NCBI RefSeq assembly: GCF_026627505.1
Contig: NZ_JAPNLK010000022.1
Location: 1 to 64,000, forward strand
Reading direction: 5' to 3'
From: Streptomyces sp. H27-H5
GTDB taxonomy: Bacteria; Actinomycetota; Actinomycetes; Streptomycetales; Streptomycetaceae
DNA: 64,000 nt
Positions 231 through 2,181 of the stretch are shown here, piece after piece (within the stretch, counting starts at the first letter, position 1; every line of letters starts with the position of its first letter). The notes beneath the pieces were generated by a model. It was not told the origin of the DNA and did not search any database. It saw only the letters and a list, made by a program, of their open reading frames with translations. Both the position numbers and the translations under genes were made by a program.

Positions 231-647
231 CTACGCGTCCTCCGCGTGGCCCCGCAGCGAGGCCGGCAGGGGTTCGCTGATGAGGCTGCGCAGTTCGTCG
301 GCGACCGCGCCGATGTCCAACCGGCCCAGCTTCGCCGCCTCGACGAGGTCTCCCAGGTCCTCCGGGGAGGGCAGGTGCTTCGCCCCGGCCACCCGCAGGT
401 ACGAGCGGGTCGCGGCGGCCGCGTAGAACTCGTTCATCGGGGATTCCAGCGCCGGGCAGACCGCGAGGGTGTGCAGAAACGCGGCGGCCCGCCACGCGGT
501 GTCCGGGGCGGGCTGTTCGGGTACCAGGACGAGGTCGTTCTGGTGCCGGGCGACCGCGGCGGCCACCCCGGAGGGATCCCACACGGCGGGATCCGACGGA
601 AGGTGATGGGCCAGGGCCGTCCAGGCCCACTCCATGGTGATCTTCAA
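231..647 (-). CDS. Doc/Fic-like toxin of a toxin-antitoxin pair
   Basis: This 138-residue protein resembles the short Streptomyces proteins annotated as Fic-family toxin components. A block at about residues 50-85 (AWRAAAFLHTLAVCP, then MNEFYAAAA) lies where Doc has its helix and Fic motif. The usual HxFx(D/E)(A/G)N(K/G)R signature is not kept: only the Asn near residue 72 can be aligned, and the catalytic His and final Arg are missing. Its start overlaps the stop of the upstream antitoxin gene by 4 bp (ATGA), so the two are translationally coupled. A second in-frame ATG four codons later is possible. Whether it still AMPylates or phosphorylates a target is unknown. Confidence 0.7.
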   Translation of the reverse strand: MKITMEWAWTALAHHLPSDPAVWDPSGVAAAVARHQNDLVLVPEQPAPDTAWRAAAFLHTLAVCPALESPMNEFYAAAATRSYLRVAGAKHLPSPEDLGDLVEAAKLGRLDIGAVADELRSLISEPLPASLRGHAEDA

Positions 648-847
648 TTGCCGAACCGCTCCTGGAAGTAGCTCCAGTGGTCGGCGAATTCCTCGATGCC
701 GGAGAGGAACGACTTCCGGTCCTCGTCCAGTTCGCGTTCGGTGACCTCGGTGATCAGCGCGGTCACCGTCGTCCCCAAAGCCGCCGCGCGCGCCTTGAGG
801 CGCTCGTGGAACTCTTCGTCCAGGCGGATGGTGACGTGTCTCGACAT
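644..847 (-). CDS. Ribbon-helix-helix antitoxin
   Basis: This 67-residue protein begins MSRHVTIRLDEEFHERLKAR, the beta-strand and first helix of an Arc/CopG ribbon-helix-helix fold. The second helix follows (GTTVTALITEVTERELDEDR), then an acidic and aromatic tail (FADHWSYFQERFGN) of the kind that wraps a toxin. The ATG at 847 was preferred to an upstream in-frame start at 913 because it begins directly at the fold and leaves the 858-877 palindrome upstream as an operator. It is expected to neutralise the downstream Doc-like toxin and to repress its own promoter. Confidence 0.85.
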   Translation of the reverse strand: MSRHVTIRLDEEFHERLKARAAALGTTVTALITEVTERELDEDRKSFLSGIEEFADHWSYFQERFGN

Positions 848-857
848 GGCGTTCACC

Positions 858-877
858 GTACAGCGGTCGTGCTGTAC
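858..877. promoter_or_regulatory. Palindromic operator of the toxin-antitoxin operon
   Basis: GTACAGC (858-864), six bases, then GCTGTAC (871-877) form a perfect inverted repeat ending 11 bp before the antitoxin ATG. RHH antitoxins bind such repeats as dimers of dimers, so this is probably the autoregulatory site overlapping the promoter or start of the transcript. Confidence 0.7.
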
Positions 878-966: not shown

Positions 967-2181
967 CTACTTCGCCGCGTTGGCCGTCTTCACCAGCGCG
1001 TCCTTGGTGACGGCGCCGACGTAGACCTTGCCGTCGTCGGTGATCAGCGCGTTGACCAGGCGGGTCGAGAAGACCCGGCCGGAACCGAACGAGCCGTTGA
1101 CCTTGTCACCGAGGGAGTCGATGAACTGCTTGGCCTCCTTGGGGGCGTCCTTGCCGTTCGCCGCGGCCTCGGCGTCCTTGAGGCCCTTGCCGCCGGGTAC
1201 GGAGATCTGTGCGACCGTCGCCCAGCCCTCGCCGAGCACCTTCACGTCGCCGTCGCCCGCGCCGCCGGTCAGGGCACCGAGGCCCGGGAAGGCGTCCAGG
1301 CCCTTCCACTCCTTGCCGTGCTCGCCCTTGGCGCCCTTGTCCGCCTCGGCGGCGCCCTCGGTCACCTTGGCGCCCTTGGGCGGGCTGAAGGCGAAGACGT
1401 CGGCGGCCGGCTTGGCGAAGTCCACCTTGGTGAAGCCGGCGTCCACGATCGGCTTGCCGCCCTGGCTGGACAGCAGCTGCACGCGCAGCGGCACGCCGTT
1501 CTTGGCGTCGACCGCGATCTGGACGGAGCCGACGGTGGAACCGGACTGCTTGGGCTTGAGCACGAGCTGGTAGGCGTCGCGGCCGGCCACCTGCGCGGTG
1601 TCGCCGACGCTGACGTCGGTGGTCGTGCCGGCGGCCTTCAGGACGTCCTGGGCCAGCTGCTGGGGCGAGGCGCCGAGCCGGTCGGCCGTCTTGTGGCCGT
1701 CCTTGCCCCGGGCGGCCGCCTCCTCGTGCTTCTCGTGCCAGGCCTCGTTGGACTGGCTGTCATAGCCCCACACGTCCGTGCCGTTGTGGATGAGGCTGTA
1801 CTCGTCCTTGCCGTCCAGGAACGTGAGCTTCTGGCGGTCCGGGCCGTCGGCCGCGACGCGGAAGGTGTGCGTGCCGTTGGCCAGCTGCGCGACCTTGTCC
1901 TGCGGGTCGGCCGAGCCGCCCGCGACGCCCCCGCCGCCGAGCAGGCCGCTCGCCAGGGTCGGCAGGCCGAGGTCGGTGCTGATGCGGGCGCTGCCGGACA
2001 GCTCCTGGACGTCCGAGGCGGCGATCTTCTCGATCAGCTGCTGGGCCGTCACCTTCGGCAGGTCCGGTCCTCCGGCGTTCGCGAAGGCCGGGACCATCGC
2101 GATGGTCGCCGCGGCCACCCCGAACACCGCGACCGGTACGGCGTACCGAGCGGCCTTGTGGGTCTTCGTGTTCGTTGCCAT
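967..2181 (-). CDS. LolA-like secreted or membrane-anchored protein
   Basis: This 404-residue protein starts with a basic stretch and one hydrophobic segment (about residues 13-35, ending MVPAFANA), which may be a cleaved signal or an anchor. The rest looks like the actinobacterial LolA/LppX-type beta-half-barrel: early residues LIEKIAASDVQELSGSARI, a central TFRVAADGPDRQKLTFLDG, then repeated strand-like segments. Such proteins bind lipids or lipoproteins at the cell surface. Gram-positives lack the outer-membrane Lol pathway, so the real substrate is unknown. The gene has its own terminator and lies downstream of the polyprenyl synthase gene, with a terminator between them. Confidence 0.75.
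   Translation of the reverse strand: MATNTKTHKAARYAVPVAVFGVAAATIAMVPAFANAGGPDLPKVTAQQLIEKIAASDVQELSGSARISTDLGLPTLASGLLGGGGVAGGSADPQDKVAQLANGTHTFRVAADGPDRQKLTFLDGKDEYSLIHNGTDVWGYDSQSNEAWHEKHEEAAARGKDGHKTADRLGASPQQLAQDVLKAAGTTTDVSVGDTAQVAGRDAYQLVLKPKQSGSTVGSVQIAVDAKNGVPLRVQLLSSQGGKPIVDAGFTKVDFAKPAADVFAFSPPKGAKVTEGAAEADKGAKGEHGKEWKGLDAFPGLGALTGGAGDGDVKVLGEGWATVAQISVPGGKGLKDAEAAANGKDAPKEAKQFIDSLGDKVNGSFGSGRVFSTRLVNALITDDGKVYVGAVTKDALVKTANAAK

Follow-up and report, generated by a model that had tools for sequence, protein, structure and literature searches.

Organization of the locus

The window, a stretch of 64,000 nt from a Streptomyces sp. H27-H5 contig (NZ_JAPNLK010000022.1), carries near its first base a two-gene module that is read on the minus strand from position 877 to 231 (Table 1). 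In the direction of reading, an operator-like palindrome is followed by the gene of a ribbon-helix-helix (RHH) antitoxin and then by the gene of its partner, a protein of predicted Doc fold devoid of the Fic motif (hereafter the toxin), whose TTG start codon sits inside the antitoxin stop (TTGA). This is the bicistronic layout of type II toxin-antitoxin (TA) systems, with the antitoxin first and the genes overlapping, and the overlap may couple translation of the toxin to that of the antitoxin. Relatives of the toxin were found in 42 of 61 genomes, own genome counted, and two sets of loci (numbered with the prefix L) were examined: (i) close relatives, comprising at least 55 loci from Streptomyces, Streptacidiphilus and two further actinomycete records; and (ii) the toxin family, for which 70 loci were fetched, including one (L071) that had no tblastn match and was recovered by HMM, and which gave 69 alignable rows with the window included. 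The weaker matches of the relative search entered the locus set only in part. The antitoxin was upstream of the toxin at all 55 close-relative loci among the matches listed, and an antitoxin start was present upstream at 67 of the 69 family loci. The first codon of the toxin was TTG in 37, GTG in 17 and ATG in one of the 55 aligned sequences (window included).

A LolA-like gene of the window type was located upstream at 37 of the 55 close-relative loci among the matches listed, while the others formed several groups with different neighbors. The 231 bases downstream of the toxin in the window had no match to any of the downstream stretches compared. The inverted repeat at 897-930 is perhaps the terminator of the upstream gene, that is, a neighbor and not part of the module; a similar repeat is present in L002, and the repeat was not listed by a terminator scan that required a T run.

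Table 1. Coordinates of the module and its surroundings in the window
Feature	Position	Strand	Basis or remark
Toxin, predicted Doc fold, no Fic motif	231-647	(-)	ORF, 138 aa, TTG start
Former Fic loop, codons for residues 63-76 (VCPALESPMNEFYA)	420-461	(-)	Alignment to canonical Docs
Codon of the kept Fic Asn (N72)	432-434	(-)	Alignment to canonical Docs
Ribbon-helix-helix (RHH) antitoxin	644-847	(-)	ORF, 67 aa, ATG start
Antitoxin stop/toxin start overlap, TTGA	644-647	(-)	Sequence; 4 bases shared
Operator-like palindrome GTACAGC-N6-GCTGTAC (7-6-7)	858-877	(.)	Perfect; only exact site in the genome
-10-like TACGGT (TAnnnT), putative leaderless promoter	855-860	(-)	7 nt before the antitoxin ATG
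Perfect 14-bp inverted repeat, 6-nt loop	897-930	(.)	Between the LolA-like gene and the antitoxin
LolA-like gene, upstream neighbor	967-2181	(-)	

Antitoxin, putative operator and promoter

The antitoxin was matched by RHH-type families and not by the Phd/YefM fold, for which no match was found. It scored 21.8 bits against Pfam ParG (cut-off 21.4), fell just below the cut-off for RHH_4 (E 5.6e-5) and well below that for the RelB-like family (E 6.5e-5), and had Arc-like repressors as its best matches in PHROGs (E 5e-4). A preliminary description of this locus, made from the sequence, had called the antitoxin and its 7-6-7 palindrome perfect; the palindrome was found to be so and the antitoxin to be intact. 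Comparison of 56 promoters (the 55 loci among the matches listed, plus the window) revealed both palindrome arms to be exact in 49, around 32 different spacers; the seven promoters with inexact arms were those of L133, L143, L146, L147, L148, L157, and L167. In the 9.13-Mb genome the exact palindrome occurs once and no second site was found at one mismatch, the next sites having two; at up to three mismatches, 257 places were detected compared with 195 for a reversed control. The search at two mismatches also brought to light a tandem run of GTACGGCG units elsewhere in the same genome (contig C255, 71513-71572).

The palindrome was further examined for its co-occurrence with the antitoxin in 294 Streptomyces genomes, 23 of which carried the antitoxin (E ≤1e-8) and 28 the exact palindrome. 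All 23 antitoxin carriers, own genome included, had the exact palindrome, and each had it exactly once (a count that for the 22 other carriers covers exact sites), compared with 5 of 271 non-carriers; the reversed pattern was found in 1 of the 294 genomes. No antitoxin-like frame adjoined the exact site in the five non-carrier genomes, and these five sites were thus read as chance occurrences. When inverted repeats were scored in single promoters, the scores were often not significant against shuffles (many p > 0.1) and the top-scoring repeat was often not the operator, being the hairpin at 897-930 in the window; the case for an operator is therefore made by conservation across loci together with presence and absence across genomes. 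By these comparisons, the palindrome behaves like a putative operator of the antitoxin.

Of the 56 promoters, 55 had a TAnnnT element 6 to 7 nt before the antitoxin start, as did 63 of 66 modules from the family at large; in 200 base shuffles these counts reached at most 4 and 6, respectively. In the window this element overlaps the right arm of the palindrome. Since transcription is expected to begin at the ATG or immediately beside it, the antitoxin mRNA is probably leaderless; leaderless mRNAs are described as common in S. coelicolor, in which 264 mRNAs have leaders of less than 10 nt (PMC4681348). A scan of positions 1-2400 for the two-hexamer sigma-70 consensus recognized no promoter and no -35 element, so that the promoter assignment stands on the -10 element alone.

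Half-sites follow the strand residues of the antitoxin

The putative operators were compared with the residues of the antitoxin strand in 122 modules, which were sorted by these residues using patterns set by eye on the same loci and with close relatives counted repeatedly. Two GCTGTAC half-sites were present in 41 of 46 modules with an H-T-R strand and in all four with a P-T-R strand, GCTAGC was present in all 30 modules with a Q-N-R strand (twice in 26), and two GGTAC/GTACC half-sites were present in all 23 modules with an A-N-E or S-N-S/T strand. None of the 53 Q-N-R, A-N-E, and S-N-S/T modules had GCTGTAC, and none of the 73 H-T-R, P-T-R, A-N-E, and S-N-S/T modules had GCTAGC; GGTAC/GTACC pairs were also detected in two H-T-R modules. 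A further 19 modules fell outside the patterns, and nine of these had two GCTGTAC half-sites as in the window. In the P-T-R modules (L058, L063, L065, and L067) the GCTGTAC half-sites are direct repeats, compared with the inverted repeat of the window. As judged from these counts, the half-sites appear to track the strand residues of the antitoxin, and the matched strands and half-sites provide ready material from which a DNA-recognition code of RHH proteins might be read.

The toxin is a predicted full-length Doc fold

The toxin itself matched no family in Pfam, NCBIfam, PADLOC, or PHROGs, neither PF02661 nor TIGR01550 included, and was therefore classified by profiles built from its relatives. 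A profile of 57 of the 69 family rows (A1) was found to match, among PDB sequences, the P1 Doc entries 3k33 (E 1e-5) and 3dd7 (E 3.1e-5) and the Doc-family entry 9vzc (E 1.6e-4), with the alignment to Doc spanning the Fic motif without a gap. The family HMM also matched canonical actinomycete Docs at E-values of 1e-10 to 1e-23, as obtained in small search sets. Canonical Docs, which were gathered from the same genus, order and class, were added to give an alignment of 87 rows (A2), from which AlphaFold2 modeled the toxin with a pLDDT of 89 and a pTM of 0.83. The best five Foldseek matches of this model in the PDB were all Doc chains. When aligned by VIA-align, the model superposed on Doc 3dd7 at Z 14.6 (2.3 A, 117 of 138 residues), followed by AvrB at Z 7.7 (3.5 A, 108 residues) and then by Fic proteins at Z 6-7. 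The model is composed of helices, without strands of three residues or more, and an inserted upper-lobe domain in the beta-hairpin, as in AvrB, is absent from the 138-residue model. An earlier model from a shallower alignment had a pLDDT of 77 and a weak N-terminal half, and was aligned to Doc over residues 47-125 only. The preliminary description had pointed to Doc-like surroundings and to comparison of a predicted structure with Doc and Fic, naming a structure unrelated to Doc as the contrary outcome; this outcome did not arise, and the toxin of the window is by prediction a full-length Doc fold.

The Fic motif is absent throughout the family

Canonical actinomycete Docs typically have the loop N-H-[AP]-[LF]-x-D-G-N-K-R, compared with C-P-A-L-E-S-P-M-N-E-F in the toxin of the window. 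Against the Fic motif H-x-F-x-[DEN]-[GA]-N-K-R the toxin lacks the His, Asp, Gly, Lys, and Arg and retains the Asn (N72) and the hydrophobic position preceding it. In alignment with P1 Doc, the catalytic His position is occupied by Pro65, or by Cys64 depending on where the one-residue insertion of the toxin is placed, and the Fic N-K-R is replaced by N72-E73-F74. The loss of the catalytic His and Arg noted in the preliminary description is thus borne out, and the Lys is lost with them, as are the Asp and Gly, which it had not listed.

The absence of the motif is family-wide and is not a matter of one gene decaying. The His column of the 69 family rows holds P in 36, R in 13, K in 10, E in 8, Q in 2, and H in none, and one subfamily keeps the Fic Arg (N-A-R-F-A). 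Of 20 weaker matches, 14 had the motif, three had kept most of it minus the His, and three were motif-less, with one of the latter broken. The three that lack the His (L224:432-833, L226:529-924, and L233:557-955) are otherwise canonical-looking Docs in which it is replaced by R, P, and R, respectively, with L233 also lacking the Asp; these losses, at two or three separate places in the tree, are possible early steps of the same loss. Two motif-less sequences, L107:1275-1634 (E-P-L-E-A-H-N-K-L-F-A-W) and L239:487-873 (D-P-L-E-D-R-N-A-F-F-A-W), look intermediate and branch beside canonical Docs. L241:440-826 is a family member interrupted by a stop and apparently a dead copy.

In a 95-row tree from which the motif columns had been excluded, a branch with an SH-aLRT of 98 separated 63 motif-less rows from 29 His-bearing rows and the three His losses. 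Left out of this tree were 30 family rows that were truncated or nearly identical to others (with the copy from the window restored), most of the 55 close relatives (nine were used), 17 of 20 loci from a separate set, one of the two L088 frames, and L111, L112, and L241. As it was computed by a quick search from 115 columns and has several long branches, a single loss of the motif is favored and not proven. Most simply, a clade of motif-less Docs found mainly in Streptomyces and close relatives lost the motif once and then diversified, in keeping with the earlier suggestion of a streptomycete family. This group is largely invisible to current models, as PF02661 (Pfam Fic) and TIGR01550 each matched 24 of the 87 A2 rows, of which 23 are canonical or canonical-like by our count. 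Other matches to A2 rows were three weak XopAC/AvrAC and one CD1375 in NCBIfam, and one FMN_red in Pfam. Plasmid records matching the toxin of the window numbered 51 (50 Streptomyces and 1 Kitasatospora), among which several members are annotated as 'toxin Doc' or 'fic family toxin-antitoxin system, toxin component', whereas others are given as 'hypothetical protein' or bear no annotation; no match to the toxin was found in phage records.

The former active site remains constrained

Coding sequences of the close relatives were compared by the method of Nei and Gojobori. The toxin had a median omega of 0.178 (55 sequences), compared with 0.155 (55 sequences) for the antitoxin and 0.425 (38 sequences) for the LolA-like gene; the toxin value was derived from 1,483 usable of 1,485 pairs, which are non-independent, with a method that is crude at high G+C and with L167 excluded as broken. 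Judging from these ratios, the toxin is under purifying selection. The toxin match extended over at least 116 residues in 54 of the 55 loci among the matches listed. In 55 sequences (the window and 54 loci, without L167) 12 of the 14 positions of the loop V63-C64-P65-x-L67-x-S69-P70-M71-N72-E73-F74-Y75-A76 were invariant, with only positions 66 and 68 variable, and T80, R81, Y83, H35, and H59 were likewise invariant from Streptomyces to Streptacidiphilus. These values leave unsupported the suggestion of the preliminary description that the toxin is inert, insofar as this means a decaying gene. The excluded locus, L167 of Streptomyces sp. MZ04, is a broken module, in which the toxin departs from the rest of the family beyond residue 58 or so, Cys replaces the strand Arg of the antitoxin, and the operator is damaged.

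Constraint was also measured within and between seven subfamilies (53 sequences), which were set by eye. Residues 62-76 had the lowest within-subfamily entropy, rank 1 of 110 windows of 15 residues, by the narrow margin of 0.234 compared with 0.242 (54-67) and 0.249 (24-37) with the insertion column excluded. The loop sequence varies between subfamilies, and at telling them apart the loop was not above average (rank 63 of 110). Near-invariant residues of the motif-less rows were D24, A30, R34, A54, A55, L67, N72, Y83, G88, and L101, and seven of these ten (D24, R34, A54, A55, L67, N72, and G88) are the usual residue in canonical Docs too. R34 lies within helix 26-36 of the model, and this fits the Arg that, according to Kinch et al., follows helix 2 and holds the loop of the active site in both Fic and AvrB (PMC2686095). 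Taken together, the alignments indicate that the scaffold has been retained and the catalytic set lost, and that the former active site is still constrained.

Proposed function of the module

Small RHH-like frames were found by eye upstream of canonical Docs at 14 of 14 loci in one set and at least 11 of 15 in another, and a likely ancestor is thus an RHH-Doc module in which the motif was intact. The module of the window is type II TA-like and probably descended from such a pair. Our preferred reading, held tentatively and with somewhat less than even confidence, is that the motif-less Doc-fold partner is a non-enzymatic effector held by an antitoxin that represses its own promoter. The RHH antitoxin would bind the palindrome over the -10 element of its own leaderless promoter and repress the operon, with the toxin made at a lower, coupled level from its overlapping start. 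By analogy with Phd-Doc, the hydrophobic C-terminal part of the antitoxin may wrap the toxin and feed back on repression. Free toxin would then act stoichiometrically, by binding through the remodeled face of the former active site. A translation factor such as EF-Tu would be the first candidate target, carried over from Doc only. A non-enzymatic effector is proposed because the catalytic residues are gone while the loop is tightly constrained, and a protein contact is a more likely output than a regulon since the genome has no other operator within one mismatch. The conservation of the loop is, as noted above, only marginally the highest, and its purpose could be purely structural or confined to antitoxin binding.

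The preliminary description had offered two readings, namely that the family uses a different chemistry or that an inert toxin is retained in a pair that survives as a regulator. According to the former, the loop Cys64-Pro-x-Leu-x-Ser-Pro-Met-Asn-Glu-Phe-Tyr with Arg81 and His35/His59 would catalyze a non-Fic transfer or hydrolysis, which we consider rather unlikely. The invariant Cys64, Glu73, Tyr75, Arg81, His35, and His59 of the window subfamily could support other chemistry, as could the place of the loop among the most constrained stretches within subfamilies, and AvrB offers the precedent of a fido fold that lacks the motif but retains binding of ADP and of a peptide (PMC2686095). Furthermore, Fic2 of Campylobacter fetus is described as toxic in spite of a degenerate motif, with its His kept and needed (PMC5651007), so that a degenerate motif alone is no proof of lost catalysis. 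However, the near-invariant polar residues of the 63 motif-less rows are D24, R34, N72, and Y83 only, and the first three are already conserved in canonical Doc; hence no shared new catalytic set is seen, and Cys occupies its column in only 3 of the 69 family rows. The related proposal that the former Fic loop was rebuilt around these same residues into a new catalytic or ligand site, with a chemistry new to the Fic/Doc superfamily, seems quite improbable to us.

The regulator reading fared unevenly. The operator-like palindrome agrees with regulation of the module by its own antitoxin, but a wider regulator is weakened by the single exact site in each of the 22 other carriers, and the lack of a second site within one mismatch in the own genome argues against it. 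A narrower form, in which the toxin is a mere co-repressor or derepressor that tunes its own operon by conditional cooperativity as a self-contained or selfish autoregulator, is consistent with the intact operator and antitoxin and with the loss of the Fic residues, yet such a pair would regulate little but itself, and the low omega and constant loop of the toxin would be hard to explain; we regard this as a rather doubtful account. The same two observations, together with the near-complete length of the toxin at the close-relative loci, make it highly improbable that the toxin is a dead remnant, a pseudogene-like passenger that persists solely through its linkage with the antitoxin, even though the catalytic residues are lost and one relative (L167) is broken. 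An anti-addiction decoy was also considered, in which the motif-less protein or its antitoxin would cross-bind and neutralize incoming canonical RHH-Doc modules. The RHH-like frames seen by eye beside canonical actinomycete Docs, the plasmid-borne motif-less relatives, and the heterologous Fic-Fic neutralization described in C. fetus (PMC5651007) are in its favor; however, the sole PF02661 match of the own genome is a 380-aa open frame and not a short Doc, and the antitoxin strands and operators differ between subfamilies, which suggests insulation rather than cross-talk. This decoy function appears very unlikely.

Comparison with known systems

The Phd-Doc system of phage P1 is a two-gene operon with the antitoxin first, in which Doc (families TIGR01550 and PF02661) is a kinase of EF-Tu. 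The module of the window resembles it in the predicted full-length Doc fold of the toxin, homologous by profile, and in the two-gene, antitoxin-first order, and the toxin shares with P1 Doc the Fic Asn, the Asp, and the Arg that follows helix 2. Unlike P1 Doc, it is without the motif His, Asp, Gly, Lys, and Arg and has no PF02661 or TIGR01550 match, and its antitoxin is of the RHH type and not Phd/YefM. In table passages of the survey by Makarova et al. (2009; PMC2701414), AbrB, Xre, and YhfG are listed beside Fic/Doc and RHH is not; two phd/doc pairs have been predicted in S. coelicolor, as reported in PMC3303803.

Doc and Fic proteins with altered motifs are described in several studies. In the classification of Khater and Mohanty (2015; PMC4454073), the main text of which does not contain the word Streptomyces, Doc clade D2 has a natural His to Gln replacement, read by its authors as selected for another function or residual activity, and clade F6 is without a conserved motif; as described there, D2 keeps D/E and N-K-R, whereas almost none of the motif is left in the motif-less family examined here. 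The enteric FicTA pair EcFicT-EcFicA is reported to have a somewhat degenerated motif and a tight antitoxin hold, and is thought to have left the toxin role (PMC5033356). By that account EcFicT keeps the salt bridge between the antitoxin Glu and the Fic Arg, and EcFicA forms two helices, whereas the antitoxin of the window is RHH. AvrB is similar to the toxin in its fido fold, in the lack of the catalytic His, and in the Arg after helix 2 (R34 here), but is described as a secreted plant effector with an inserted upper-lobe domain (PMC2686095). Altered motifs are thus already known from D2, F6, EcFicT, Fic2, and AvrB; a large streptomycete group of RHH-partnered Docs minus nearly the whole motif was not found in searches of the open-access literature, which likewise yielded no paper on motif-less Streptomyces Docs. 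Although many of the plasmid relatives are annotated as Doc or Fic toxins, their residues argue against Fic or Doc chemistry. Should such relatives nevertheless be able to arrest growth, they would represent toxins of the Doc fold whose action relies on binding alone or on a new chemistry.

Among the close counterparts of the module are the canonical actinomycete RHH-Doc modules (e.g., L222, L087, and L089), which share its gene order, an antitoxin that is RHH-like by eye, and a similar Doc length, but differ in having kept H-x-[LF]-x-D-G-N-K-R, or nearly so. Relatives with and without the motif are thereby at hand for side-by-side comparison.
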